A stretch of DNA of 32,862 bases, taken from assembly GCA_017650365.1 (NCBI GenBank), contig JAGCEZ010000027.1, positions 1 to 32,862 of the forward strand, read 5' to 3'. Every line of letters starts with the position of its first letter. Position 1 is the first letter of the stretch. Under the pieces are notes generated by a model. It was not told where the DNA came from and did no database searches. It worked only from the letters and a program-made list of their open reading frames with translations. Shown here piece by piece: positions 17,375 to 32,862 of this stretch. Source of the DNA: Fibrobacterales bacterium. GTDB taxonomy: Bacteria; Fibrobacterota; Fibrobacteria; Fibrobacterales; CADBQJ01. The position numbers and the translations under genes were made by a program.

Positions 17375-19939
17375 CTACTCCACGAACTCGATGTTGTCGA
17401 GTTCCATCCGGAAGTCCTTGCCCTCCTGCATCTCGGGCGCGAAGCAGATGTCGGTGACGTCCATGAAGGACTTCTCCTCCTGCTTGCCCCAGGCGGGCTG
17501 GCCGAACTTGTCGAAGGGAATCTCGATCTGCGTCCACTCGGCCGGAACCGTGAAGATCGCCTTGAAGTTCGCGTAGTCGCTCACCACCTTGCGGCGGACG
17601 GCCAGGTTGAACTTCGTCCCCTCGCCCTTCGCCCAGAAGCGGACGGCGCGGTAGGGGCGGATGTCCACCGGGCTCCAGTCGGGCGCGAGGTTGGTGCAGA
17701 AGGCGGTCCAGGCGTGGCGCGGCGGGTTGGAGATCCCCATGTGGCCGTCGATCACGACGCCGTGCTTGCCGAGCTCGGCGGGCGCGCCGGAGTGGGTCGT
17801 CCAGGGGTTGTCGCCGATCTTCGTGCCCACGCGCGAGGCGTCGAGGTAGTGGAAGACGCCGCCGCCGACGTTGTTCTTGTCCCAGGAGGACTCGAAGTCG
17901 GCGATCGTCAGGACCTTCTTCTGCGGCAGGAGGACGCCGGGCGTGCCGACGGTGGGCTTGCCCATCGCCACGAGGTTCTCGGTCTCGGGCAGGCGGATCC
18001 GGTTCCCGTCGTCCTTGCGGGCCATGCCGGCCGCGAGGAAGGGGAGGTCCTTCTTCATGTAGTATTCCTGCGCCTCGAACATCGCGAAGCCGTCGGCGCC
18101 GAGCTCGCGCGTGGCGCGGATTTCGTCGGCCTGCACGTCGAGGTCGAGCGTCTGCCAGGAGGAGAGCACCGGGCCGATGCCCACGTAGAGCTTGGTGTTC
18201 GTCCCCTCCAGCGCGAGCTTGTGCTGGCGGATCTGCCCGCGGAAGTCCTCCACGTCGGAGGTGTAGGACATCGGGAAGACCGCGTCCACGATCCCCTCCT
18301 TCGCCCACGCCTCCCAGTCCTGGAAGACGTTGTCGCGCGCGAAGTCGGGCTTGCCGAAGACCGCGGCGCTCACCACGATGTCGGGCTTGATCGCCTTCAC
18401 GCGCTTGTAGACCGTGCGCATGACGTTGGTGATCAGGTCGCAGCGGAACTTGTTGTACTCGTCCTTAAGCGCGCCGGAGACGACGTCCTCGGGCCACTTT
18501 TCGACGGGCTTGCCGATCCGTTCCTCGAACTTCTTCCGCATCGGCGCGGAGAAGTCGACGTTCTGGCCGCCGAAGCGGATGTAGTCGAGGTGGATCCCCT
18601 GCACGTCGTAGTTGGAGATCAGCTCCTCGATCGCCTGGATCTCGAACTCCACGTTCTCGTCGAGCGCGGGGGTGAGCCAGGTGGTGGTGTCGCCGGTGGC
18701 GGTGATCTGCATGCGCCCTTCCGCGCGGAACTTGTCGGGCGAGTCGCTGGGCGACATCCACCCTTCCGCGAACTGGAACATCACCTTCCAGGCGTGCACC
18801 TCCATGTTGTTCTCCTTCGCCGCGGCGAGGATCGCCTTCATCTGGTCGCCTTCCGCGTCGACGTAGGCCGACGGCGGGACGAGCTTGGAGGGATAGTAGG
18901 CGACGCCGCTCCAGAGGACGTTGGGGAGGATGGCGGTGTAGCCGTCGGCGGCCAGCTCCTTCAGCGCGCTGCGCCAGGGCTTGTGGCCTTCGCCGATCTT
19001 CAGCGGGCCGTTGCCGTAGTGGCACCAGATGCCGCGCCATTCGGGGTTCTTCGTCTCCTGCAGCAGCGCGTAGGCCTCGGTCATGTAGCGCTTGGCGACG
19101 GGGATCCTCTCCTGCGCCTCGGGCGCGCGGACGTCGGGCATCGCGGCGACCTCGTCGTGGATCTTCTTCGCGCGGTCGATGCGGTCCAGCGCGTCGGCCT
19201 CGTTGACGTGGCCCTTGGCCTTCGCCTCGAGGTCGGCCACGGCGGAGGCGTAGTCCTTGTAGGACGAGAAGCGGCCGATGTCGTCCAGGCCCAGGCCCGC
19301 GATGGCGCGGAGGTCGCGGACGAAGACGCGCGAGTCCTTCTTGGCGCCGGGCAGCAGGCAGAAGCGGATGTTCTTCACCTGGTCGAGCCCGAGCGGCACG
19401 CCCTCGGTGGTGGCGCGTTCGAGCCAGATCTCCACGCTCTTCCAGGCGTTCGTCAGGCCGAAGGTGGGGAGGGCGTACCAGCCGTCGCCCGACTCCAGGT
19501 ACATCATCACGCCCGAAAGGGCCTCGGGGTCCTCCACGCGGGCCTCGAAGACCAGGCGGTCGTAGCCGGAGAGGTTCAGCTGCACGGCGCGGTCCCAGTA
19601 GAGACGCCAGTCGGAGAGCGTGGTGAAGTTTGCGTCGAAGACGGCCACCTGCTGTTCGGCGTCGTTCCCCATGCGCGGGGCGCGGCTGTCGGCGTTCATC
19701 GGCTTCCACTGCGCGGCGATCAGGTCGTCGGAGGCGTAGTCGTAGGCGTCGATCTGCAGCGGCTTGTCGGGCAGCGCGGCCTTGACCTCCGTCTTCGGGG
19801 CGTCGGCGGCCGGGGCGGCGGAGGCGTCCTGCTGCGCGGATTCCTTGGGGGCGTTGCCGGCGCAGGCGAAGAGCGCGCACGCGGCGGCCAGGGCGGAGAT
19901 CCCGAGCAGGGCCCGGGGGGAGCGGAGAACGGTCTTCAT
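17375..19939 (-). CDS. Lipoprotein with GHL10 (DUF187) glycoside-hydrolase-like domain and flanking carbohydrate-binding-like modules
   Basis: An 854-residue exported protein. ATG 19939 begins a lipoprotein signal; the lipidated Cys could be C26 (ALFAC) or C21, neither a perfect lipobox. An N-terminal beta-sandwich-like module (about 50-205) is followed by a helical stretch (about 215-300). Then comes a TIM barrel of the family-10-like DUF187 type (about 305-650): RGIWCHYG, LKELAADGYTAILPNVLW, EVHAWKVMFQF, VQGIHLDYIRFGG, DIVVSAAVFGK and DAVFPMSYTSD. A final module (about 680-854) with RAVRFWAKGEGTKFNLAV and MELDNIEFVE resembles CIA30/CBM11-like binding domains. Likely role: surface hydrolysis or binding of a polysaccharide; the substrate is unknown. 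It is monocistronic and divergent from recC. The longer upstream open frame overlaps the promoter and is not used. Confidence 0.85.
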   Translation of the reverse strand: MKTVLRSPRALLGISALAAACALFACAGNAPKESAQQDASAAPAADAPKTEVKAALPDKPLQIDAYDYASDDLIAAQWKPMNADSRAPRMGNDAEQQVAVFDANFTTLSDWRLYWDRAVQLNLSGYDRLVFEARVEDPEALSGVMMYLESGDGWYALPTFGLTNAWKSVEIWLERATTEGVPLGLDQVKNIRFCLLPGAKKDSRVFVRDLRAIAGLGLDDIGRFSSYKDYASAVADLEAKAKGHVNEADALDRIDRAKKIHDEVAAMPDVRAPEAQERIPVAKRYMTEAYALLQETKNPEWRGIWCHYGNGPLKIGEGHKPWRSALKELAADGYTAILPNVLWSGVAYYPSKLVPPSAYVDAEGDQMKAILAAAKENNMEVHAWKVMFQFAEGWMSPSDSPDKFRAEGRMQITATGDTTTWLTPALDENVEFEIQAIEELISNYDVQGIHLDYIRFGGQNVDFSAPMRKKFEERIGKPVEKWPEDVVSGALKDEYNKFRCDLITNVMRTVYKRVKAIKPDIVVSAAVFGKPDFARDNVFQDWEAWAKEGIVDAVFPMSYTSDVEDFRGQIRQHKLALEGTNTKLYVGIGPVLSSWQTLDLDVQADEIRATRELGADGFAMFEAQEYYMKKDLPFLAAGMARKDDGNRIRLPETENLVAMGKPTVGTPGVLLPQKKVLTIADFESSWDKNNVGGGVFHYLDASRVGTKIGDNPWTTHSGAPAELGKHGVVIDGHMGISNPPRHAWTAFCTNLAPDWSPVDIRPYRAVRFWAKGEGTKFNLAVRRKVVSDYANFKAIFTVPAEWTQIEIPFDKFGQPAWGKQEEKSFMDVTDICFAPEMQEGKDFRMELDNIEFVE

Positions 19940-19957
19940 TCGCTGGTCCTCTGTTGT

Positions 19958-19972
19958 GCGGGGCGTCCCCGC
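19958..19972 (-). promoter_or_regulatory. Leader hairpin of the GHL10 lipoprotein mRNA
   Basis: GCGGGG (19958-19963) and CCCCGC (19967-19972) form a 6-bp stem with a three-base loop inside the predicted leader. It lies upstream of an AGAGGA ribosome site. A -10 candidate TATTTT lies at 19991 to 19986 on the minus strand. Function is unknown. Confidence 0.35.
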
Positions 19973-20034
19973 GGTTCCTTTGAGAAAAATAAACCAAAAC
20001 GAGAGGAATCGGAAAAATGTCACGGCAAAAGCGG

Positions 20035-20040
20035 TATATT
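20035..20040 (+). promoter_or_regulatory. -10-like box of the recCBD operon
   Basis: TATATT (20035-20040) followed by GGGG. The predicted start is near 20047, with a ~20-base leader holding GGGAG before ATG 20067. No clear -35 element is seen. Confidence 0.5.
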
Positions 20041-20066
20041 GGGGAAACGCCACCAGGGAGACGCCG

Positions 20067-23000
20067 ATGCCGTTCCACGTATATTACAGCGACCGAATCG
20101 AAGATCTCGCAGCCAGGCTGAAGGCAGATCTGGGAAACCGGAAGCAGGCAGACCCCTTCATCTTCCCCAAAATCGTCACGCCCAATCCCAATGTCGGGAA
20201 ATACCTGAGAATAGAGGTCTTTTCGAAAGTGCCGGAGTTCTGCGCCGGCGTGGACTATCCGATGCTTCGCGGCTTCCTGGTCGAGCAGATGAAAGCGAGC
20301 CTGCCGGGAAAGGTCGAACTTCTTCCCGACCGGGCGTATGCGGTCGCCATCGCCGACAACTTGCTGAACCCGCGGAAGGAGGACGAGGAGGCGCTGAAGC
20401 CGTTCCGCGAATACGTGTTCGGCGACGCGAAACCGACGGACGCGCTGGACCAGCGGCAGGCGAGGATGCTCTGGCAGCTTTCCGACAAGCTGGCCGGGTT
20501 GCTGGACGACTACGAAATCCACCGTCCGGACGTCGTCGAGCGCTGGCTCAACGACGGCAGCATCGCGGACAAGGGGAATAAGCCGGAGAAAGGAAGTTCT
20601 GAGGCGGGCGAAGCCGTTCTGGCGAAAAGGCTCTGGGCGAAGGACGGTCGTTTCGGCGACGCGAGCGAAAAGAAGTCGATGCGCCAGATCTACGAGATGG
20701 TGAAAGGACGCGAACCGGCCGACGGCGACGAGATCTACCTCTTCGGCCACTCCACGCTCTCTCCTCTGCAGGCGAAGATCGTCCTCTGGCTTGCCCGAAA
20801 GCGCAAGGTGTTCTTCTACCACAACAACCCCTGCCTGGAGTATTGGGGAGACATCGAATCTGACAGGAAGAACAAATCCGATTGGACGCGGAAGAGCGCG
20901 GACGACTGGATGAAGAAATGGAACTCCGGTCCCGAGAACGAACTGCTGTGTGGTTTCGGTGCGGCGGGTCGTGCAACGGTCGCGTTGCTCCAAGACTGTT
21001 CGGAAACCGACGGCTTCGAAATGGAGCCCGTCGAAGACGAGAAACGTCCCGCTCCGAACACGGTGCTCGGGCGGGTGCAGGAGTCGATACGCCATCGGAC
21101 ATCCGATTTGGAACGAAAACCTCAGGACGCCTCGCTCCAGATCGTCGGGACGCCGGGCATTCGCCGCGAAGTGGAGATGGTCTACAACTCCATCGTCGGC
21201 AGCGTTTGGAAACCCGAAGGCTCCGGGAAACGCCCTTGGCCGGACTGCCTGTTCTCCGACATCGCGGTGCTGGTTCCTGACATGGCGACCTACCGTCCGG
21301 TCATCGAATCCGTCTTCGACGCGCGGGGCGAGGTTCCCTACGGGCTCATCGACACGACGGCGTCCGAAGAGAGCTCCTATCTCGCCGGCTTCCTCGCGCT
21401 GATGGAACTGGGACGACGCGGATTTTCGCGGCAGACGCTGTTCGGACTGCTGGGCAATGTCTGCGTCCAGAGCAAACAGCGGTTCGACCACGGGCATTTC
21501 CTCGAATGGCTGGATTTGACCGGCGACGAACTGCACGCGTTCGACGGATTCGACAAGAAGGACGACGATGATTTCTTCAACTGGAAGTGGGCGCTCGAAC
21601 GGCTACGGCTGGCGCGCGTGGCCGATTCGCTGAAGATGCCCGGTTCGCCGAACGAGGAAATGCCTCTTGTACCCGGCGGCGGCGAGTCGGCGATGCGTTT
21701 TTCCGCGCTCGCCGAACTTTTGCACCGCGAGCTCGTCGCCGCACTCGGGAATGATGGAACAAAACGGTTGCCGTGCGTTGGGCCGGAATCCGAAAAGAGG
21801 GAAAACTGGGCGTCCCGGCTGGCTTTCCTGGCCGACGCGTTCCTTGCGCCGCCGGACGGCGATCCGCTCGAAACGCACGTCCAGAACGAGGTGAAAAAGG
21901 TCTTGCGTTCTCTCGCCGACCTCCAAGGGAGCTGGAACGTCGAAATCGCCGCCGCGGCCGTGGAACACTTCGTCGGCGGTCTGCCCTGCCGCAAGGGCGG
22001 CTATCTCACGCATGGCGTGACGATTGCCGGGATGATGCCGATGCGCCCCGTTCCGTTCAGGCAGATCTACGTGCTCGGTCTCGGTGAAGGAGGTTTCCCC
22101 GGACGCGAAAGCGGAACGACGCTCGACGTCCGCGGTCTCCCCGGCATGGATCGCGGCCTGACCGACATCTCCGCGCCCAACATGAACCGCTACGTGTTCC
22201 TGGAGACGCTGATGTCGGTGCGCGACCGGCTGGTGCTCAGCTATCCGAATCTCGACATCGAGAAAGACGCGGAACTCTTCCCCTGCGGCCCCGTGCTCGA
22301 ACTGGAGAAGTTCGTCGGCGAACACGTGCTTTCCGCGGACGCCGACGGGAAGCCGGTGCCGTTCGCGGAGTTCAAGGGCTATCCGCTTCTGGAACGCGGC
22401 GAAATGGACGGCGCGAGCAAGCGTCCTGACAAGACCGTTCCCGTCGAACGGATTGTCTGGAAGCACGACGACCCCGATGCGGGAATTTTGCCGAGCTATT
22501 CCGCGGTCGCGCGCGAAATCGCGCGGAAGATGGAAGCGCTTCGCAAACTGGACGCTCTCGGCAAACAGAAGGAGAAGGATGAGAAAACGCTCCGCAAGTT
22601 GAAAGCACTTCGCGAGCAGACCGCGCAGGATGAAAATCCGTTCGCCGCCGAACCGAATTCCCCTGAGAGCGAGTGGAAAGCGGAGTTCACGTCGAAGGAG
22701 TTGGCCGAATTCGTCAAGAACCCGACGCGCGGTGTGATGAAAGGCCTGCTCGGGGTCTCCGTCTCCGGGTACAGGGATATCGCCATCGCCAAAAATTCTC
22801 CGGTGGACCTGCCGGATGGCCCGATGACGTGGGGTGTGCAGGAAGACCTGTTCGCCTATGGAATCGAAATCCAGAAGCCCGGCGCGGAAACGCCGAACGT
22901 CAAGGAACTGTTCCGCGAAAGGGGCGCGAAGGATTTGCGGGAATTGCAACGCGCAGGATGCGTGCCGACCGGATATCTGGGCGAGTTCGCACTGAATCGG

Positions 23001-23735
23001 CTTGTGGAAAATCTGCCGGAAGACACGGCAAAGGATTTGGCCGATCGATACGGATTGGCGGCGTGTTCGCTGGATGAGTGGGAGAAAAAGCACGTTCTTC
23101 GCGCGCGATACCGTTCGAGCGAGAGCAATCGTCTGTTCGTCGCGAAGGTCGACAACTGGACGGAATGGCCGACGGAACAGGCCGTGGTCGTGACGCGGAG
23201 GCTCGGTCTGGGAAATCTCCCGTCCGACGGCGTCATCGAGCCCTTGATCGGCTGCTGGACGCGCCTGGCGGAGCAATGCGCGAGCGGCAAAATCGGAGAC
23301 GAGGAGCAGACCATCCAGATCGCCGTCATCGACATGGACGGAGGAAAATCCTGCGAATGGGTTTGGAGAATCAAGCCTTCGGAGTGCGCGGCTCGGCTTA
23401 ATGCGATCGCGAATGCGTATCTCTCCCATTTGGCGGGCGGTCTCTCTGATGTCACGTGCAAGAAGTACCGCAAGGCGGCGGAGAAAGCCGGTGATCAGGC
23501 AATCGATCTGAAGATGCTGTCGGCAGACGAGGACGAAGGCCGCTTCGGCAAGAAAAAGAAGGACGCGTTCGACAATTCTCTGGTGGTCGAAAAAGTGATT
23601 GACAATTGGAAAACGGGCGAAACAGGACCGCGGTTTGAACGACTGCGCGACATCTGGAAGTGGTTCGTTCAAGGCGAGAAGAGCGCCAGAGCGCCGGAAA
23701 CCGATTTCGAAAACGTGGAGGGCGGCAATGGCTGA
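20067..23735 (+). CDS. recC: Exodeoxyribonuclease V subunit gamma (RecC)
   Basis: A 1222-residue protein, slightly longer than E. coli RecC (1122). RecC holds the RecBCD complex on the DNA end, splits the strands and recognises Chi. Typical segments include an early helicase-like region with PNPNVGKYLRIEVF (the RecC counterpart of the P-loop region), FCAGVDYPMLRGFLVEQM, YLFGHSTLSPLQAKIVLWL, EVEMVYNSIVGSV, and the diagnostic RQIYVLGLGEGGFPGR followed by MNRYVFLETLMSVRDRLVLSY. A Lys/Glu-rich stretch at about 815-860 looks like a coiled or flexible insertion. GGGAG precedes ATG 20067. Its last eight bases overlap the recB start, so the two are translationally coupled. Base composition is clearly less GC-rich than in neighbouring genes. 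Confidence 0.92.
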   Translation: MPFHVYYSDRIEDLAARLKADLGNRKQADPFIFPKIVTPNPNVGKYLRIEVFSKVPEFCAGVDYPMLRGFLVEQMKASLPGKVELLPDRAYAVAIADNLLNPRKEDEEALKPFREYVFGDAKPTDALDQRQARMLWQLSDKLAGLLDDYEIHRPDVVERWLNDGSIADKGNKPEKGSSEAGEAVLAKRLWAKDGRFGDASEKKSMRQIYEMVKGREPADGDEIYLFGHSTLSPLQAKIVLWLARKRKVFFYHNNPCLEYWGDIESDRKNKSDWTRKSADDWMKKWNSGPENELLCGFGAAGRATVALLQDCSETDGFEMEPVEDEKRPAPNTVLGRVQESIRHRTSDLERKPQDASLQIVGTPGIRREVEMVYNSIVGSVWKPEGSGKRPWPDCLFSDIAVLVPDMATYRPVIESVFDARGEVPYGLIDTTASEESSYLAGFLALMELGRRGFSRQTLFGLLGNVCVQSKQRFDHGHFLEWLDLTGDELHAFDGFDKKDDDDFFNWKWALERLRLARVADSLKMPGSPNEEMPLVPGGGESAMRFSALAELLHRELVAALGNDGTKRLPCVGPESEKRENWASRLAFLADAFLAPPDGDPLETHVQNEVKKVLRSLADLQGSWNVEIAAAAVEHFVGGLPCRKGGYLTHGVTIAGMMPMRPVPFRQIYVLGLGEGGFPGRESGTTLDVRGLPGMDRGLTDISAPNMNRYVFLETLMSVRDRLVLSYPNLDIEKDAELFPCGPVLELEKFVGEHVLSADADGKPVPFAEFKGYPLLERGEMDGASKRPDKTVPVERIVWKHDDPDAGILPSYSAVAREIARKMEALRKLDALGKQKEKDEKTLRKLKALREQTAQDENPFAAEPNSPESEWKAEFTSKELAEFVKNPTRGVMKGLLGVSVSGYRDIAIAKNSPVDLPDGPMTWGVQEDLFAYGIEIQKPGAETPNVKELFRERGAKDLRELQRAGCVPTGYLGEFALNRLVENLPEDTAKDLADRYGLAACSLDEWEKKHVLRARYRSSESNRLFVAKVDNWTEWPTEQAVVVTRRLGLGNLPSDGVIEPLIGCWTRLAEQCASGKIGDEEQTIQIAVIDMDGGKSCEWVWRIKPSECAARLNAIANAYLSHLAGGLSDVTCKKYRKAAEKAGDQAIDLKMLSADEDEGRFGKKKKDAFDNSLVVEKVIDNWKTGETGPRFERLRDIWKWFVQGEKSARAPETDFENVEGGNG

Positions 23736-26700
23736 ATTCGAATCGCTACCGCCGGAAACCAAGGCGCAGACGGCCAACGAAAAGGCCGTATGGGACCAGT
23801 TGACGTTCGACCATGACGTCATCATCGAGGCTTCCGCCGGCACGGGCAAGACGTATGCCTTGGAACAGATTGTCCGCAAGCTGGTCAAGAAAGGCTACGA
23901 GGTTCCCGAAATCCTGTTGGTCACATACACGGAGAAGGCCGCGGGCGAGTTGAAGAATCGAATCCGGAAGACTTTGGGGGATGCAGGCGAGTCGCTGTCG
24001 AGATTCGGCGAAGCCGCCATCTGCACGATCCACTCCTTCTGCAGGGATCTCCTCGCCGAATACGCTTTCGAAATCCGGAAGCCGATGCGAGTGGATGTCG
24101 TCGCGTCCGAAGAGGAGTTGATCCGCGATGCGGTCCGAAAGGCTCTCGAAGGCGACAAATTCCGGGAACGGTTCGGCGGCGCCTATTCGGACTGGATGCG
24201 GGCCGGAAACTTCAAGACGACGGAGGAATTGATCGACGCCGTCGTGGAGAAGATGAAAAAGCGCCTTCGCAAGACGACGGAAGAAAAGCCGATTCAAGCG
24301 ATGGACGGAATTCGCGAAACCGTCGTGGAGACGCTTCAAAATGCCGGAGTTGCCTCAAAAGAAGACTTGGCGGCAAAGGTGGGCAGGTTTTGCGAATCTG
24401 TCGAAGGGCGGTGGAGCTACAAAGCGAATTTCGCATGCAGCTACGAAAGTCTTCGCAGATGTTTGCCGGGGCTCTTGGCGAAAGATGACGCGGCTTTGTT
24501 CGAATGGGAGAAGTGGACCGCGGATCATGCTGGAAAGACTTTCTCGTTGGACACGCGAATGGCGTCGAAATACGGCGGAATCCTGTCGGATCATGTCGAA
24601 GGATGGAAGTGCGTCGTCGATGCTTTGGACAACGCCGTTCAACATTGTCGACAAGGACTGCTCCTGGGCTTGACGGAACTGGCGAACGCCGAATACGAAC
24701 GGATGAAGGCGGAATCGTCCGTCATGACGTTCGACGACATGGTCCTCGACGCGAGCGAAGTCGTGCGTCGGGAAGCGGACGCGGAACGGAACGGAGGCAA
24801 GAGCGCCTTGCTTGAAGCCATCCGCAAGAAGCACCGCATCGCTCTGGTGGACGAGTTCCAGGACACCGACAATCGACAATGGGAAATCTTCCGCTCGATT
24901 TTCTCCCACAAGGTCAACAACGCGGACGGCAATCGCAAGCCCGGGTTTCTTCTGGTCGTGGGGGACCCCAAACAGGCCATCTATTCGTTCCGCGGCGCAG
25001 ACATCGCCACCTATCTGACGGCGCGCGGGACAATCGAAAAAGACAATCCAGGCGAGTACCGGAAGACGCTCGACACGACCTGGCGTTCCACGGAAAAAAT
25101 GGTGGATGCGTTCAACGCCTTGTTCGGCGACAGATCAGGCTGGTTCGACGGCATGACCGTGCAGACGAAAAACGGAGAAGGCGGGACAATCGAGTACACG
25201 CGCGTCAAATTTCCGGAAGGGAACCAAGAGTTCGCGGGATTCGAAGAAAATGACCACACGGGGCGGGATGCCGTGACGTTGCTGGAATCTTTGGACGGCG
25301 ATATCCGACCGAACAGCCAGAACGGCTTGGGAGACAATGCGCGGTGTTTGCCGATCTTTCTGGAAAACGCCGCGAACGAAATCAAGCGGCTGAGGTCATT
25401 GGATTCCGCCATGCCGGTCAAGGACAAGGAGACCGAAGAGATCCGCAACCGGATGAGGTACGGCGATTTCTGCATCCTGGTGAGAAAAAACGCCGACGCC
25501 GATGTGGCCAAAAAAGTTCTCGGACGGCATGGCATCCCCTACGGGCACTACAAGGAGGCGGGCATCTACGACTCCGCGGAGGCGGAATCGGTGTTGGCTC
25601 TGCTCGATTTCCTGGGCGAGCCGTGGCGCGACGGAAATCTCGCCGCGCTGCTGTTGACGCCGTTTTTCCGCGTTCCTCCGGAAAAGCTCGAAGCGACGAT
25701 TGCCCAGAAGCCGAAGGCATTCGTCGAAACCGTCGAAACGTGGCAGTTGCTGGCGGCGAAGAGGGACTGGAACGGATTGTTCGAGAACATCCTTTCAGCG
25801 AGCGCTCTGGCGCAGCCCAAAGCCGGCGACTTCGAATACGACAGGCGGTGGGCGGCCATCCGGCAGATCTTCGACAAGCTCCTCGCGGAAATCGGAACAA
25901 CGGCGACGACGGCCGCGGAGTTCGCGGAACTGCTGCGCTGCTGGAGACGCGACGACAGCCGCGCCGGCGAAGGCGGCTCGTTGCGACGCAAGGAGAGCGA
26001 CGCCAACCGCGTGCAGATCATGACGATGCATGCGTCGAAGGGGCTGGAATTCCCAGTCGTGTTCGTCGCATACGGATTCTCCTCGCCGAACGACCGCAAT
26101 GACGCGACCGAGGAGGAGAAGCGGGAAAACCAGCAGGAAATGCGGCGCCTGCTCTATGTCGCGATTACGCGCGCCAAGCAGAAACTCTACCTTCCGTGGT
26201 CCGGCCGCGCCATGGAGCAAAAACCGGTGAATCCCGAACCGGATGGCAAGACAACGACAAAATCCAAAACGGACAAGCCGTCGGCGCCTCTATGGGGCGT
26301 TGGAAGCAAAGGGTCCGCGTTGCGCGGCGGGTTCCTTGCAAACGGCATCTGCGCCTTGTTCGGCGATGCGGCCGAAGCGACGAAGCACACGATCACGGTG
26401 GCGGTGCCGTCGGCCGTGGAATCCGCTGCAGTTCCGTCCGCTTCCGAAGCCGAGCAGGACGGGCACGCCCCCGAAAAGCTGGAGAATTTCCCGGGCAAGG
26501 CGCTGCGGCAGAATCGCATGCGCTGGGATTCCTTCACCTCGCTTCACAAGAGCGACGCGAACATCGGCGCGATGTGGTTCGCCGGAACGGCAGAAAACGA
26601 ATTCGACGAAGAGCAGGGCGAAACCGAGGAGGAATCGAAGTCCGCTGGGCCGAACCTGTTCCCCGGCGGGACGAGCGCAGGCAGCGTGTTCCACGAAATC

Positions 26701-27429
26701 ATGGAAGCGCTCTGCGTCAACGACGGCTCCTTGGAAGCCCCCGATTTCGGAAGCGTCGGGAAAGCGGATTTGGAGAAGTTGGAATCCGATGCCGGCGAAG
26801 AGAACGCGTCTGCGTTCGTGAAATTGATCCGCGCCAAGATGCGCCTGCACTCCATGGAAAACCGCGTGCACAAGGACGATGGCGGCGCGATCGTGGACAC
26901 CACGGAGCGGATGCTGGTCCGCATGGTCTGGAACGCGCTGAACGTGAAGCTCCAGTTCGGTGAATCGAAACAATTCTCCCTGAAGGACATCGCGAGGGAG
27001 AACCGACGTGCGGAAATGGCTTTCGCCGCGAGCGAACGCGAACTGGTCGGCGGAGAGCGGGGCGCCGGCGCCTTCAACGGCGCGATCGACCTCCTGGTCC
27101 GTCCTGAAGGCAAGGACGGACCGGTCTACGTCCTGGACTGGAAGACGAACACGCTCAAGGACTACGGCAACAAAGCCGTGGAGGACGCGATGGAGGCCTG
27201 CGGGTACCACCTCCAGTACGAAATCTATTCCCTTGTCGTCCGCCGGTGGCTTGGCGAAGGACGTCCGAACGGCGTCGCCTACCTGTTCGTGCGCGGCGGC
27301 GCGAAAGAAGGCCGATGCGGCGTCTATCTGCAGCCGCTGAAAGACGACTGGGAAGGCAAGTTCACGGCCGATCTCGGGAATGCGCTTCCCGGTCCTCGTC
27401 CGGCGGCGAAAACGGAGGAAAGAAAATGA
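23728..27429 (+). CDS. recB: Exodeoxyribonuclease V subunit beta (RecB), helicase-nuclease
   Basis: A 1233-residue 3'-5' SF1 helicase with a C-terminal nuclease, the catalytic core of RecBCD in double-strand break repair. The helicase motifs are all present: Walker A EASAGTGKT (K41), VTYTEKAAGELKNRI, TIHSFC, Walker B VDEFQDTD (D375, E376), VVGDPKQAIYSFRGAD, TTWRS, MTMHASKGLEFPVVF and YVAITRAKQKLYLPW. The nuclease domain retains H989 (GSVFHEIME), D1121 (GAIDLLV), D1137 and K1139 (LDWKTN), followed by YHLQYEIYSLVV, so it should be active. ATG 23728 has GGAGG just before it and lies inside the recC end, overlapping by eight bases. The recB stop overlaps the recD start (ATGA). It shares the lower GC of the operon. 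Confidence 0.97.
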   Translation: MAEFESLPPETKAQTANEKAVWDQLTFDHDVIIEASAGTGKTYALEQIVRKLVKKGYEVPEILLVTYTEKAAGELKNRIRKTLGDAGESLSRFGEAAICTIHSFCRDLLAEYAFEIRKPMRVDVVASEEELIRDAVRKALEGDKFRERFGGAYSDWMRAGNFKTTEELIDAVVEKMKKRLRKTTEEKPIQAMDGIRETVVETLQNAGVASKEDLAAKVGRFCESVEGRWSYKANFACSYESLRRCLPGLLAKDDAALFEWEKWTADHAGKTFSLDTRMASKYGGILSDHVEGWKCVVDALDNAVQHCRQGLLLGLTELANAEYERMKAESSVMTFDDMVLDASEVVRREADAERNGGKSALLEAIRKKHRIALVDEFQDTDNRQWEIFRSIFSHKVNNADGNRKPGFLLVVGDPKQAIYSFRGADIATYLTARGTIEKDNPGEYRKTLDTTWRSTEKMVDAFNALFGDRSGWFDGMTVQTKNGEGGTIEYTRVKFPEGNQEFAGFEENDHTGRDAVTLLESLDGDIRPNSQNGLGDNARCLPIFLENAANEIKRLRSLDSAMPVKDKETEEIRNRMRYGDFCILVRKNADADVAKKVLGRHGIPYGHYKEAGIYDSAEAESVLALLDFLGEPWRDGNLAALLLTPFFRVPPEKLEATIAQKPKAFVETVETWQLLAAKRDWNGLFENILSASALAQPKAGDFEYDRRWAAIRQIFDKLLAEIGTTATTAAEFAELLRCWRRDDSRAGEGGSLRRKESDANRVQIMTMHASKGLEFPVVFVAYGFSSPNDRNDATEEEKRENQQEMRRLLYVAITRAKQKLYLPWSGRAMEQKPVNPEPDGKTTTKSKTDKPSAPLWGVGSKGSALRGGFLANGICALFGDAAEATKHTITVAVPSAVESAAVPSASEAEQDGHAPEKLENFPGKALRQNRMRWDSFTSLHKSDANIGAMWFAGTAENEFDEEQGETEEESKSAGPNLFPGGTSAGSVFHEIMEALCVNDGSLEAPDFGSVGKADLEKLESDAGEENASAFVKLIRAKMRLHSMENRVHKDDGGAIVDTTERMLVRMVWNALNVKLQFGESKQFSLKDIARENRRAEMAFAASERELVGGERGAGAFNGAIDLLVRPEGKDGPVYVLDWKTNTLKDYGNKAVEDAMEACGYHLQYEIYSLVVRRWLGEGRPNGVAYLFVRGGAKEGRCGVYLQPLKDDWEGKFTADLGNALPGPRPAAKTEERK

Positions 27430-29297
27430 AAGAGGATGTTTTTCTCCGTCAGCTGAAGCTGTTTGGCGTTCCCTCCGGTTCGGACGAAAACACCGAGGCG
27501 GTTCGGGTGTTCCTGGCCAAACGCCTTGAGAACGGCGATCTTTCCTTGTCCGAAATCCAGCTGTCGCGCGACATTGCCGAACGCGGGAAATGCGAAGACG
27601 CCGCCGTCCACCTGTTTCTCGCGGCGATGTTCGTCGCCCAGCGGAAAGGCGACGCCTTCCTGAGCGAGAAGAATGGAGAGCGGATTTTCAATGAATTCGG
27701 CGAGTCGGGTCTTTGGGAAAAAGCGCGAGCCGCCGCGCCGGGCCTTCCGGAAGAGATCGTCGTCCTGGAAAAAGGCAAAGGCTGGTTCTTTGCGCGCAAC
27801 CTCGAGGCCGTCAAGTGCGTTTCGGCGCTGATTCGGGAACGGGTCAAGAAGTCGCTTCCGGAGGAATGCCCGGACGTCGAAAAATCCATCGCGTTCACCG
27901 ACAAGACGCTGGACGAGTTCCAGAAGAACGCGGTGCTGACGGCGACGTCGCGCCACTTCGCCGTGATCACCGGCGGGCCGGGAACGGGGAAAACCACGAT
28001 TGTCTGCGCGATTCTCCGCGCGCTGCTTCGCCCGGGCAATCTCCGTCCCGACGAAATCGGGTTGGTCGCGCCGACCGGGCGAGCCGGCCAGCGCATGACC
28101 GAGGCGCTTCGAAAGGAACTCGCCAACGCGAAGGACGAGGATCCGGCGGTTCTCGCGTCCATCGGATCGTTGAAAGGCGTCACAATCCACAGTCTGCTCG
28201 GCGGTCGTGCGCCGCATTGGAAACACACGAAATACGACCAGTTGCCGCACAGGCTCGTCGTGGTGGACGAATCGTCCATGGTGGACCTGCATCTGATGCG
28301 CGCCCTGTTGGAGGCGTTGCGCGACGACTGCCGTTTGGTGCTCCTCGGCGACAGCCACCAGCTGCCGTCCGTCGACGAGGGCGCTGTCCTTGGCGATCTC
28401 GCGACGAAGGATGGAGAGCGCGACGGCTGGGCGGTCCACCTGGAGGATTCGCACCGGTTCAAAGGCGGGCTCAAGAAAGCGTCCGAGGCAATCAACGCCG
28501 GCGATTCGGATGCGTTGAAGGGCGCCGCTCCCGCACTGGGAATCGAAACCGAATCGGACTGGACCTCGACGCTTCGCAAAGACACGACGAAGAACTGCTG
28601 TTTCCGCCTCGTCTTCGGCAAGATGTCGGCGCAAAGCTGCCATAAGGCCCTAGAGCAATGGGCGATGTGCTTCGGAACGTTGGGCGAACTCGCCACACGG
28701 GCAAAAGGAATCGCGGGCGACCCGGCAAAAGGGATCGCGCCCGATGCATGCCTCGACGACGGAACAATGACGCCGGCGGCGAAGGCGCTTTTCGAATGCC
28801 TGGACCGCTCACGCGTGATCACCGTGCTGCGCAACGGCCCGTTCGGTGTGGCCGGCGTGAACGACTTCTTCTCGCGGAAAATCCACGGACGGCGGAAAAC
28901 CGACAATCTTTTCGACAAACCCGGCGTGCCCGTCCTGATCACGCGGAACTCGAAGGAGCGCGAACTCTACAACGGCGACATCGGAGCGACCGTGTTGCAC
29001 GATGGCATGATGTACGCGCTTTTCCCGAGAGGGGAGAAGGTCGTCGCCTGTCCGGTCGCCCTGCTGCCGGAACACGAACCGGCCTACGCGGTCACGGTCC
29101 ACAAGGCGCAGGGGTCGGAATTCGGAAACGTGCTGGTCGTTCTTCCCGACGACGAGGGGAATCCGCTGCTGTCGCGGGAGATGGTCTACACGGGGATCAC
29201 GCGCGCAAAGGAGCGGGCTGTGATCCTGGGAACCGAAGCGGCGCTCGAAGCCGCGCTCGGAAACAAGACCGACCGCGACACGGGCATCGAGATCTGA
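27426..29297 (+). CDS. recD: Exodeoxyribonuclease V subunit alpha (RecD)
   Basis: A 623-residue 5'-3' SF1 helicase, the fast motor of RecBCD. An N-terminal helical region (about 1-160) contacts RecC. Helicase motifs follow: Walker A TGGPGTGKTTI (K189), VAPTGRAGQRM, Walker B VVVDESSMVDL, LLGDSHQLPSVDEGAVLGDL, LEDSHRF, and the C-terminal VTVHKAQGSEFGNVLVVLP with YTGITRAKERAVI. Its length matches E. coli RecD (608). ATG 27426 overlaps the recB stop by four bases (ATGA), with GGAGG ahead. It is the last gene of the operon, and only ten bases separate its stop from the stop of the convergent lipoprotein gene, with no hairpin between. Confidence 0.96.
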   Translation: MKEDVFLRQLKLFGVPSGSDENTEAVRVFLAKRLENGDLSLSEIQLSRDIAERGKCEDAAVHLFLAAMFVAQRKGDAFLSEKNGERIFNEFGESGLWEKARAAAPGLPEEIVVLEKGKGWFFARNLEAVKCVSALIRERVKKSLPEECPDVEKSIAFTDKTLDEFQKNAVLTATSRHFAVITGGPGTGKTTIVCAILRALLRPGNLRPDEIGLVAPTGRAGQRMTEALRKELANAKDEDPAVLASIGSLKGVTIHSLLGGRAPHWKHTKYDQLPHRLVVVDESSMVDLHLMRALLEALRDDCRLVLLGDSHQLPSVDEGAVLGDLATKDGERDGWAVHLEDSHRFKGGLKKASEAINAGDSDALKGAAPALGIETESDWTSTLRKDTTKNCCFRLVFGKMSAQSCHKALEQWAMCFGTLGELATRAKGIAGDPAKGIAPDACLDDGTMTPAAKALFECLDRSRVITVLRNGPFGVAGVNDFFSRKIHGRRKTDNLFDKPGVPVLITRNSKERELYNGDIGATVLHDGMMYALFPRGEKVVACPVALLPEHEPAYAVTVHKAQGSEFGNVLVVLPDDEGNPLLSREMVYTGITRAKERAVILGTEAALEAALGNKTDRDTGIEI

Positions 29298-29307
29298 CGC
29301 GGAAAAT

Positions 29308-30681
29308 CTAGTGCGTGAGCCCGTAGGCGCCGGCGGGGAGGCCGGGGATCGCCGCGACGGGTTCGCCGGTCGTCTCTTCCCAGACGCGGAGTTCGGGGGC
29401 GCGCTCCTCTCCGGAGACCGTCGCGACGCGGCCGTTGGGCATGAGCGCCGCGCCGCGGACTTCGCCCGCGCCGGAGAGTGTCCAGGAGTCGAGGAGCGAC
29501 CCGTCTTCGAGCGCGTAGGCCGAGACGGCGCCGGAGGCGCCGACGGCGACGACCCGTTCGCCCGAGAGCTGCACGAAGGCGTTCTCCTCGGTTCCGAGTT
29601 CGATCGACCGCGCGGGCGAGTCCCGCACGAAGTCTTCCGCGCTGGAGTAGAGCGAGAGGACGTTCGCCTCGGGCCGGTAGAGGTAGGAGGCGAAGAGCCC
29701 GCCGTCGGAGGAGGCGGAGCGGATGCCGACCTGGTCGGCGTAGGAGCCGGGGTGCGGAACGACCTGCCCGTCTTCGCGCGCGACTTCCCAGAGCGTGTCG
29801 GTCTCGGGCGCGTAGATCCAGTCGCTTCCGCCGTCGGCGAAGAGGAGGAGGTCTTCGGAGGAGGCGACGCGCGCGAGTTCGGTCGCGGTCCTGTGGCAGA
29901 GGTCGAGGAGGACGAGGGCGGTCGAGCCGTTTCCGGGGACGAGCGTGCGGTAGAGGTCGCCCGAGGGCGCCGGGAGCGCTTCGGCGGAGGAGGAGAACGC
30001 GGCGTCGCCGTCGGCGCAGTCCCAGGCGCTGACGGAGGTTTCGGGGAGCGGGGCGGGGAGCGCGACCGTTCCGGGCAGCTCCGCTTCGCCGGAGGCGGAG
30101 GTCCAGTCTTCGATCTTCGTCGCGCTCCACGAGTCCGCGTTCCGGCGCATCGCGACGAGCGGCATCTTCGCGCCGACGACGTTCTTCAGCGAGAAGCTGC
30201 CGTCGGAGGAGACGCGCGCCCAGAGTCCGCTGCCCGCGATGCCGACGCGCGCTTCGTCCCCGAGCGCGCCTTCGAGCTTCCCCTTGAGCGTCGCGCTCTT
30301 CTGCAGCGGGCCCGCGGCGAGCGAGAGGTCGCCTTCGGGAACAGCGATTCCCGGAATCCAGAGGCGCCACGAGGAGTCGGCGCCGACGAGTTCGGCGTTC
30401 CAGCGCTTGTCCGCGGCGAGCTTCGCGGAGAAGCGCCCGCCCTCCTCCTTCGCCGCGACGGGCGTCCGCGTCGCGCCGGAGATCTCCTCGGGCAGCGAAC
30501 CGGCCTCCCAGAAGCGGACTTCCGCGAGCCTGGACGCGGCCGTGGTCCGCACGCCGGAGGCCAGAGCCACCGTCACCGTGTTCTCCGTGCCGGAGGCGGT
30601 GCCCGCCACTTCGTCGGAACACCCCGCGCAGAGCGCGAGCGTCGCGGCGGCGAGCGCGTGGACGACGAGGCCTTTCTTCAC
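29308..30681 (-). CDS. Lipoprotein coupled to a TIGR02147 protein, unknown function
   Basis: A 457-residue predicted lipoprotein. It starts at GTG 30681 (GTGA overlapping the upstream stop) with AAGGA ahead. The signal peptide MKKGLVVHALAAATLALCAGC gives C21 as the lipid-modified Cys in a good lipobox (LCAGC). Residues ~30-200 contain beta-sandwich-like repeats with segments such as ATLKGKLEGALGDEARVGIAG, similar to carboxypeptidase-regulatory-like folds. Residues ~220-457 show short repeated strands (LLLFADGGSDWIYAP, RVVAVGASGAVSAYALEDG, LRVWEETTGEPVAAIPG) as in WD40/PQQ-like propellers. No catalytic motif is seen, so a surface binding or sensing role is inference. It is translationally coupled to the TIGR02147 gene, which suggests a shared function. 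Confidence 0.75.
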   Translation of the reverse strand: MKKGLVVHALAAATLALCAGCSDEVAGTASGTENTVTVALASGVRTTAASRLAEVRFWEAGSLPEEISGATRTPVAAKEEGGRFSAKLAADKRWNAELVGADSSWRLWIPGIAVPEGDLSLAAGPLQKSATLKGKLEGALGDEARVGIAGSGLWARVSSDGSFSLKNVVGAKMPLVAMRRNADSWSATKIEDWTSASGEAELPGTVALPAPLPETSVSAWDCADGDAAFSSSAEALPAPSGDLYRTLVPGNGSTALVLLDLCHRTATELARVASSEDLLLFADGGSDWIYAPETDTLWEVAREDGQVVPHPGSYADQVGIRSASSDGGLFASYLYRPEANVLSLYSSAEDFVRDSPARSIELGTEENAFVQLSGERVVAVGASGAVSAYALEDGSLLDSWTLSGAGEVRGAALMPNGRVATVSGEERAPELRVWEETTGEPVAAIPGLPAGAYGLTH

Positions 30682-31511
30682 CGTTCCTTCTCCCTGGTGA
30701 GCGGGAAAAACTGGATGTTCAGCTGGCAGACCGCGTTCTCCCCGGAATCGGACTTCACGATCTCGAAGATCTCGCGCTGGACGTCCGCCAGCTTCTTCAA
30801 AATACGTTGTTTTCCCTCGGGCGAGACGGAAAAAGTGGTCGTGGAGATCTGGCGCTTCTCCTTGGGGATCTCGCGCAGGGCGCGCTTCCCCTCGTCGATC
30901 AGCGAGGCCTGGTAGTTCCGGACGAGGTCGACGCCGATCTCCGCGCCGCCCATCAGCGTCTTGGTGGTGCTCTCCCAGATTCCCGTCGGGGCGCGCTTGG
31001 CCAGGCCTATGCTCTCCAGCAGCTCCACGGCGCGGCGCGCCTCGGCGATGGACATCGGCGGGTCGAAGAAGCGCGCGAGCTCGGCGTAGTCGTCGCGGAC
31101 CTCGAGCACGGAGAGCGCGTGGTGGACGGCTGCGTAGCGCCAGTCGGAGTAGTATTCGCGCTGGCCGAGGTGCGCGCGGCGGATCCGCTCGGGCATCAGC
31201 GGGAACATCCGGTCGAAGATCTCCTGCCGGCCCTCGGGCGTGGTGGCGTGCGTGAAGTCGACCATCAGCCGGAAGTAGGCCTCTTCGTTCGGCTCGAGCT
31301 TCATCGCCGCGGCGAACTTCGGAATGGTGTTGTCGGTCAGGTTGACCTTCCCCCGGACGATGCTGCTGTAGAGGCCGGAGGAGTTGAAGCCGGCGCGCTG
31401 CGCGAACCAGCGGTAGGAGAAGTTGCGCTCGTCGGCCTTGCGGGCGTCGTAGTAGTCCCGCAGGAAGAGGCGGTAGTCGAAGTACTCGAAGATGTCGATG
31501 GGCAGCGCCAT
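30678..31511 (-). CDS. TIGR02147 family protein (possible regulator)
   Basis: A 277-residue protein with the characteristic start of TIGR02147: IDIFEYFDYRLFLRDYYDARKA, then FSYRWFAQRAGFNSSGLYSSIVRGKVNLT, a helix-turn-helix-like stretch (about 30-65), then NTIPKFAAAMKLEPNEEAYFRLMVDF. A second winged-helix-like part follows (about 165-215, SIAEARRAVELLESIGLAKR). This family is expanded in Fibrobacter and also present in Bdellovibrio, and its members are usually thought to be DNA-binding regulators, but I know of no firm function. ATG 31511 is chosen because it begins the conserved MALPIDIFEYFDYR. The -10 box is only seven bases before it, so the mRNA is probably leaderless. Its stop overlaps the lipoprotein start (GTGA). 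It is divergent from the CotH gene. Confidence 0.85.
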   Translation of the reverse strand: MALPIDIFEYFDYRLFLRDYYDARKADERNFSYRWFAQRAGFNSSGLYSSIVRGKVNLTDNTIPKFAAAMKLEPNEEAYFRLMVDFTHATTPEGRQEIFDRMFPLMPERIRRAHLGQREYYSDWRYAAVHHALSVLEVRDDYAELARFFDPPMSIAEARRAVELLESIGLAKRAPTGIWESTTKTLMGGAEIGVDLVRNYQASLIDEGKRALREIPKEKRQISTTTFSVSPEGKQRILKKLADVQREIFEIVKSDSGENAVCQLNIQFFPLTREKER

Positions 31512-31518
31512 GGGAAAA

Positions 31519-31524
31519 AATCTA
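31519..31524 (-). promoter_or_regulatory. -10 box directly before the TIGR02147 start codon
   Basis: Minus-strand TAGATT (31524 to 31519), then TTTTCCC, then ATG 31511. The expected +1 lies on or one base before the ATG, and no Shine-Dalgarno sequence is present. Confidence 0.55.
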
Positions 31525-31556
31525 GGCTCCGCGGCGGATTTTTCCTCCGAAAACCG

Positions 31557-31575
31557 TTTGAACACCCTTTGAGCA
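31557..31575. repeat. Direct repeat TTTGAACA / TTTGAGCA, possible operator
   Basis: TTTGAACA (31557-31564) and TTTGAGCA (31568-31575) are near-identical octamers 11 bases apart, about one helical turn, midway between the divergent TIGR02147 and CotH start codons. Such spacing fits a dimeric regulator on one DNA face. Function is inferred only. Confidence 0.4.
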
Positions 31576-31630
31576 AATCGCGGACCGCCCGAAACGGCCC
31601 GTTTTCGCGGGGTCGGCGGGAGGCGGATTC

Positions 31631-31636
31631 TAGATT
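31631..31636 (+). promoter_or_regulatory. -10 box directly before the CotH start codon
   Basis: TAGATT (31631-31636), then TGGTCC, then ATG 31643. The six-base gap puts +1 exactly on the A of ATG, with no ribosome site, which predicts a leaderless mRNA. TAGATTTGG matches the TAnnTTTG pattern in full. Confidence 0.6.
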
Positions 31637-31642
31637 TGGTCC

Positions 31643-32862
31643 ATGTTCCCGCGCCCCGCCACGCCGTTCGCGGCCATCGCAGCAGCTGTCCTTCTCCTGG
31701 CCGGGTGCTCCCTGTTCGACCCCTCCGAGACGCCCGAAAGGGAGCGCGGCGAGGCGTTCGAGGTCGGCCTCTTCGACGAGGGGCGCGTTCCGCGGTTCGA
31801 GCTCTCCGTGAAGGAGGCGGACTGGGCGTGGCTGAACGTGAGCGAGAACGCGCTGAAGGAGGAGTGCGTCCCCGCGACGCTGGCGATCGACGGCGTGGAG
31901 ATCGGCAAGGTCGGCGTGCGGTACAAGGGATCCAACTCCCTGCACCAGTGTTTCAAGGCGGGCAAGGCGCCCTGCCCCAGGGCGTCGCTGAAAATCGAAT
32001 TCGACGGATATCGCGGCAGGACGCGCGTCGACGGCATGCGCAAGATCAATCTCCATTGGCCGCTGAACGACGACTCCATGCTGCGGGAGAGGCTGACCTA
32101 CCGACTCTTCCGCGAGATGGGGGTCGAGACGTCGCGCGCCGCGCACGCCGCGCTCTCCGTCAACGGCGAACCTTTCGGGCTCTATGCGATGGTAGAGCAG
32201 ATCGACGAGGCGTTCCTGGAGGACCGATGGGGAAGCGCTGCCGGCGCGGACAATCTCTGGAAGGAGATCTGGCCCCGGGAAGTCCACCGGGACTGGACCG
32301 CGCAAATCAAGCAAGGAACGCTTCTCGGCCAGGCCGGCGTCGAAGAGTTCGCGAAGGCGCTGCGCGAAGCGGCCGCGACCGGAAACAGAGAGCTCTTCGA
32401 GCGCCACGCCGATCCCGAACAGGCGCTGAACTACCTCGCGGTGGACGTCGTCTCCGACAACGTCGACGGCTACCGGACGTTCTACTGCCACGGAGACGCC
32501 GCTGTGCTGGAGGATTGCGTTCCGCACAACTTCTACTGGCGCCAGTCCTGGCCGGAAAACCGCTTCACGTTGATCCCCTGGGACCACAATTCGACGTTCC
32601 TCGTGAACCCGTGGCTGACGGCGCCCGAGTGGAACGACACAACCGTCTCCTGCGACACGCTTCTGCCGATCGAAGGCCGGCGGCTTTGGCACGCCGGGTG
32701 CGATCCGTACTTCAAGGCGTTGCGGACGCTCTATCCCGACGAGTGGAAGGCGGCGCTGAAGCGGCTCGCGAAGGGCCCGATGTCGGGCTATCTCGTCGAA
32801 CGGTGGCTGAAGGAGTGGAAGAACGAGATCGAACCGTTCGTGGACGAGGACACGCTGTTCCA
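31643..32862 (+). CDS. CotH kinase-like lipoprotein (3' end outside window)
   Basis: At least 406 residues, with no stop before the window edge. MFPRPATPFAAIAAAVLLLAGCS is a lipoprotein signal with C22 in LAGC. The body follows the CotH family: VRYKGSNS (substrate-side loop), KINLHWPLNDDSMLRERLTYRLFREMG, LSVNGEPFGLYAMVEQIDEAFL, and IPWDHNSTF, which matches the WDxxxxF metal-binding segment of CotH kinases. CotH of Bacillus phosphorylates spore-coat proteins. Bacterial relatives are often exported or anchored to the outer membrane and may modify surface proteins or belong to cellulosome-like systems. The role here is unknown. It is divergent from the TIGR02147 gene, and its promoter box predicts a leaderless mRNA. 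Confidence 0.85.
   Translation, partial: MFPRPATPFAAIAAAVLLLAGCSLFDPSETPERERGEAFEVGLFDEGRVPRFELSVKEADWAWLNVSENALKEECVPATLAIDGVEIGKVGVRYKGSNSLHQCFKAGKAPCPRASLKIEFDGYRGRTRVDGMRKINLHWPLNDDSMLRERLTYRLFREMGVETSRAAHAALSVNGEPFGLYAMVEQIDEAFLEDRWGSAAGADNLWKEIWPREVHRDWTAQIKQGTLLGQAGVEEFAKALREAAATGNRELFERHADPEQALNYLAVDVVSDNVDGYRTFYCHGDAAVLEDCVPHNFYWRQSWPENRFTLIPWDHNSTFLVNPWLTAPEWNDTTVSCDTLLPIEGRRLWHAGCDPYFKALRTLYPDEWKAALKRLAKGPMSGYLVERWLKEWKNEIEPFVDEDTLF

Follow-up and report, generated by a model that had tools for sequence, protein, structure and literature searches.

A conserved tandem operator beside leaderless promoters in Fibrobacterales and its candidate TIGR02147-family regulator

Genes and promoter features of the locus

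The window analysed here is a 32,862-nucleotide stretch of contig JAGCEZ010000027.1 from a rumen bacterium of the Fibrobacterales, whose 2.08 Mb genome belongs to the Fibrobacterota and has as its nearest named relative a MAG labelled Fibrobacter succinogenes RUG14205. On the minus strand, a gene of the TIGR02147/DUF4423 family (30678-31511; start codon 31511-31509) encodes a predicted helix-turn-helix regulator of 277 aa, which scores 276.3 bits against a family cut-off of 50 over residues 5-273 and also gives a DUF4423 match. Its stop overlaps by four bases a lipoprotein gene of the same strand and operon (29308-30681; 457 aa), in which motif CSDEVAGTASGTENTV follows the lipobox. On the plus strand, a CotH-family lipoprotein gene begins with the ATG at 31643 and extends to 32862, where the contig ends before the 3' end of the gene; the incomplete product nevertheless scores 119.6 bits against a PF08757 gathering cut-off of 23.8.

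The two divergent genes are separated by 131 bp (31512-31642), and each is preceded by a -10-like TAGATT box, that of the TIGR02147 gene at 31519-31524 (minus strand; 7 bases, 31518-31512, to the ATG) and that of CotH at 31631-31636 (plus strand; 6 bases, 31637-31642, to the ATG). Inspection found no Shine-Dalgarno site at either start, and direct reading of the DNA agrees with what the sequence-only reading had described. Between the boxes lies a minus-strand tandem, TGCTC-N6-TGTTC, with an 11-bp period (31560-31575), which corresponds to the 11-base-spaced repeat of the sequence-only reading; in the DNA that repeat is TTTGA...TTTGA at about 31557-31572 (minus strand GCTCAAA-N4-GTTCAAA). Elsewhere in the window, three genes in a row resembling recC, recB and recD (19764-29297) have a GC content of about 0.60 against 0.68, a strong AT skew and a poor match to the codon use of the genome, which suggests that this trio was acquired recently.

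Leaderless promoters in the window and across the genome

A genome of the same genus (G001) keeps the gene pair, with 78% identity for the TIGR02147 protein and 85% for CotH. Alignment of the related intergenic regions showed that both boxes retain exactly 7 and 6 bases to their ATGs in G001 and that the repeat is retained; the letters filling these 7- and 6-base gaps differ. The TIGR02147 start of G001 has GGAGG one base before the ATG, which is too near for a usual Shine-Dalgarno site.

To place these promoters in a wider frame we sampled about 0.79 Mb (38%) of the window genome, from which a simple codon-model caller gave 621 genes, and counted boxes before 266 first-in-unit genes with an upstream gap of at least 40 bp; the gene starts are approximate because this codon-based caller was used on the sampled 38%. 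The motif TAnnTT stood 6, 7 and 8 bases before the ATG in 29, 19 and 7 of the 266, compared with about one per position elsewhere. Among genes of this class in the sample, 53 lacked a Shine-Dalgarno site and one had it, compared with its presence in 82 of the 220 remaining genes. The same positional peak was found in smaller samples of two relatives (G010, G042). We did not find a 16S gene in the window's own genome; one relative (L129) has an intact CCTCC at the 16S 3' end.

The box mostly extends as TAnnTTTG or TAnnTTTC, TG being the commonest extension after TAnnTT both in intergenic DNA (102/510) and at leaderless promoters (14/54), and no -35 signal was detected upstream of the -10 at leaderless promoters in the window genome sample. 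In Bacteroidetes the promoter consists of a -7 element TAnnTTTG and a -33 element TTTG. The prevalence of TG after TAnnTT resembles that -7 element, whereas no -33 TTTG was found at the leaderless genes here. As in the TA-like leaderless genes described by Zheng et al. (2011; PMC3160421), a -10 lies at a short fixed distance from the start codon, there is no Shine-Dalgarno site and the class is a minority beside leadered genes; here the class with TAnnTT 6-8 bases before the start comprises about 20% of the first-in-unit genes in the sample. Fibrobacteres are not mentioned in the survey's text among the groups with leaderless genes, and the positional statistics document leaderless genes, as judged from promoter sequence, as a sizeable class in Fibrobacterota.

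Position statistics and conservation together give good support to the view that both window promoters are of the ordinary leaderless type of this lineage, which upholds at the level of sequence the earlier claim that the two genes are leaderless, and a predicted +1 on the A of the CotH ATG fits the usual -10 geometry. The sequence-only reading had also proposed that their back-to-back arrangement forms a special switch, which did not hold: double-leaderless divergent pairs numbered 6 of 66 in the sample where 5.5 were expected, and a pairing that occurs at the rate of independent promoters is not special. Elsewhere in this genome a paralog of CotH (53% identical; L099 14624, G000:C122) is likewise leaderless, with TAGATT-N6-ATG, and two other TIGR02147 paralogs of this genome look leaderless as well, with TAGATT-N6-ATG (L001 4757) and TACATT-N6-ATG (L003 12422); the GTGTTC tandem described below is absent from both of these paralogs.

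A tandem operator at TIGR02147 promoters

The minus-strand sequence of the repeat is TTTGCTCAAAGGGTGTTCAAA in the window and TTTGCTCAAAAGGCGTTCAAA in G001. Fibrobacteraceae possess a TIGR02147 ortholog that is a single best match, mostly 43-46% identical and clearly above the next paralogs, and its promoters typically carry 3-5 same-strand GTGTTCYC-like copies, near -170, -114, -103 and -40 from the ATG, those near -114 and -103 being 11 bp apart. Across 31 non-redundant TIGR02147 promoters GTGTTC occurs 88 times on the gene strand and once antisense, compared with a mean of 1.2 in mononucleotide shuffles, and the copies are most often spaced 11 bp apart. From the start of the last copy to the TAnnTT box there are usually 23-26 bases, and the box in turn stands 7-9 bases ahead of the ATG in most ortholog genomes. 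The tandem site is thus kept order-wide ahead of the TIGR02147 ortholog, far outside the window, and the evidence strongly supports reading the repeat as a conserved operator, in line with the regulatory role first suggested for it.

The spacing of the site differs between the two promoters of the locus. From the operator to the TIGR02147 -10 there are 41 bp in the window and 30 bp in G001, one helical turn (11) less, whereas to the CotH -10 there are 71 and 87 bp, respectively, a difference that is not a whole turn; because the first distance is phased and the second is not, action on the TIGR02147 side is favoured. Only the tandem is specific, as a search with the single site GGTGTTCCCAAA, one mismatch allowed, gave no excess over the control. 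We also considered GTGTTC as a general -35 element and rejected it, since leaderless promoters in general do not show it and the tandem is limited to two loci. An inverted repeat near CotH (GAAAACGG/CCGTTTTC) was set aside as well, its half-motif being simply common in the intergenic DNA of this genome.

GH45 endoglucanase genes as a candidate second target

Exact matches to the tandem outside TIGR02147 promoters were found upstream of lipoprotein genes that are GH45 endoglucanases. A scan of the genomes of 13 relatives with AGTGTTC-N6-YGTTC (11-bp spacing) gave 32 matches compared with 11 for the reversed pattern that served as control; TIGR02147 promoters accounted for matches in 13/13 genomes and GH45 promoters in 10/13, and the 9 other sites are at chance level; matches were assigned to promoters by comparing their positions with gene coordinates. 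With a 10-bp spacing as negative control there were five matches, none of them at a TIGR02147 or GH45 promoter. In the Fibrobacter loci the first GH45 gene has GAACR-N6-GAACR about 90-117 bases before its ATG in 21 of 25 cases (15/19 without six loci that had been found via the pattern itself), and the tandem is missing at the other four. This is the TIGR02147 site in opposite orientation, GAACAC occurring 25 times and GTGTTC once at these loci.

The distribution of the site also follows that of the predicted regulator. In other genera with a TIGR02147 ortholog the tandem is present at 9/10 GH45 loci, and in genera without it at 0/10; these genera represent few independent lineages, the GH45 genes of those without it may not be orthologs of the others, and the Fisher p-value for the co-occurrence, made too small by relatedness and selection, should not be read literally. 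One relative (G042) has the ortholog, yet the operator is absent at the GH45 locus examined. Where the GH45 operator is present, a conserved TTTAC follows at 36-39 bases from its start and TAnnTT at 65-67, and in one group of four loci these distances are about 48 and 75-77, one helical turn more. This would put the operator at about -70 to -80, immediately upstream of the -35 region, a position that would fit an upstream activator.

The TIGR02147 protein and its partner lipoprotein

An AlphaFold model of the TIGR02147 protein (37-sequence alignment; pLDDT 84.7, pTM 0.63) contains a predicted helix-turn-helix-like unit at residues 33-69, with helices at 33-40, 46-52 and 63-69, and a winged-helix-like region near residues 124-181. 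Foldseek returned weak partial matches to XRE repressors (6tri, 1y7y) and to MarR folds, none with E<0.001, and a sequence search gave no homolog of solved structure. The ortholog is followed by a lipoprotein gene that overlaps it and carries a GTATDTENTVAG-like motif, at 30/30 loci in one set and at nearly all in another. More distant TIGR02147 genes, with 30-36% identity, from Chitinispirillaceae and further Fibrobacterota (L287-L295) have an overlapping or adjacent lipoprotein-like gene downstream, often with a GGGGSEAVAL-like motif past the cysteine. A regulator-lipoprotein module may accordingly extend across the phylum Fibrobacterota.

Proposed mechanism and alternatives

Our data suggest a model in which two ordinary leaderless promoters, each with an extended TAnnTTTG-like -10, no visible -35 and a +1 predicted on or beside the start codon, flank a tandem direct-repeat operator whose YGTTC halves, 11 bp apart, would face the same side of the helix. 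The putative binder is the divergently encoded TIGR02147 protein itself, a predicted helix-turn-helix regulator in one operon with the lipoprotein, which would act on the leaderless promoter of its own gene and, in relatives that degrade cellulose, may activate the GH45 endoglucanase gene from just upstream of the -35. The operator shows itself in the sequence comparisons through its conservation, its restriction to two promoters, its fixed or one-turn geometry and its co-occurrence with the ortholog. Our inferences concern the identity of the binder, the direction of control, the 5' ends of the transcripts and a possible effect on CotH; binding by the TIGR02147 protein to its own promoter is plausible given the co-occurrence and the location of the site, and autoregulation is proposed because a site that precedes the ortholog order-wide and occurs essentially nowhere else but at GH45 is its usual signature. 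Taken as a whole, we regard binding of the tandem by the TIGR02147 protein, with control of its own promoter and activation of GH45 in cellulolytic relatives, as the probable explanation.

Helix-turn-helix regulators that control their own genes through helically phased direct-repeat operators form a general class. The present system resembles them in having the site in its own and in a target promoter, in the 11-bp repeat and in the toleration of one-turn shifts, and differs from them in that no function, DNA site or target of TIGR02147/DUF4423 was found described in the literature searched.

The operator might instead belong to a different, unlinked regulator, for example another helix-turn-helix protein, with TIGR02147 and GH45 both merely targets; these could be the targets of a sugar-responsive regulator from another locus, and the fold matches of the TIGR02147 protein are weak. 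The presence of the site before the ortholog throughout the order, with essentially only GH45 besides, and the lack of GH45 sites where the ortholog is absent make this unlikely. Somewhat better placed, although still doubtful, is a compact divergent switch in which the operator controls TIGR02147 and CotH together, which would be compatible with the autoregulatory model: the site lies between both promoters, G001 retains the gene pair with both boxes, and the orientation of the site relative to CotH is that relative to GH45. However, outside this genus CotH is not the neighbour of TIGR02147, the spacing to its -10 is unphased, and divergent leaderless promoters occur together at the chance rate, which leaves an operator role at CotH uncertain.

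It is also conceivable that the locus has ordinary leaderless promoters only and that the window repeat is a decayed or chance remnant, functionless in this lineage. The window copy (TGCTC/TGTTC) is indeed weaker than the Fibrobacter copies and forms one pair rather than 3-5 sites, and the window genome offers no further clear target. Nonetheless GCTCAAARGGYGTTCAAA is kept in G001 where much of the nearby intergenic sequence has changed, and between the two genomes the gap from this site to the TIGR02147 -10 shifts by one helical turn, which renders this the least probable of the readings considered.

Going beyond autoregulation, the TIGR02147 protein could be devoted to the control of cellulose degradation in Fibrobacterales, regulating its own gene, binding the 11-bp GTGTTC tandem and activating GH45, with the co-transcribed lipoprotein perhaps aiding sensing; we put this forward tentatively. 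If true, the many TIGR02147 paralogs, often paired with lipoproteins, would constitute a class of surface-linked regulators. Fibrobacter is one of the main cellulose degraders of the rumen, and the control of its cellulase genes was named as an unanswered question in the genome paper (PMC3079729) and, in a later transcriptome study, the regulation of cellulase expression was described as not well known (PMC6204037). The present analysis names a candidate regulator, an exact DNA site and one target gene, and suggests a role for part of the large TIGR02147 family of unknown function.

Further operator-like sites

No GH45 gene is present in the window genome. An operator-like tandem, TGTTCCAAAGGTGTTC, is found roughly 100 bp upstream of an isocitrate dehydrogenase-like (icd-like) gene of this genome (L216 1501, G000:C118:39488); a DNA search of G001 for the icd-like region returned only a 30-base match within the coding region. 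Away from both TIGR02147 and GH45, an identical tandem, AGTGTTCTTAAAATGTTC, occurs in two Fibrobacter genomes (G017:C5:6970, G010:C3:441846) and may possibly mark a third target.
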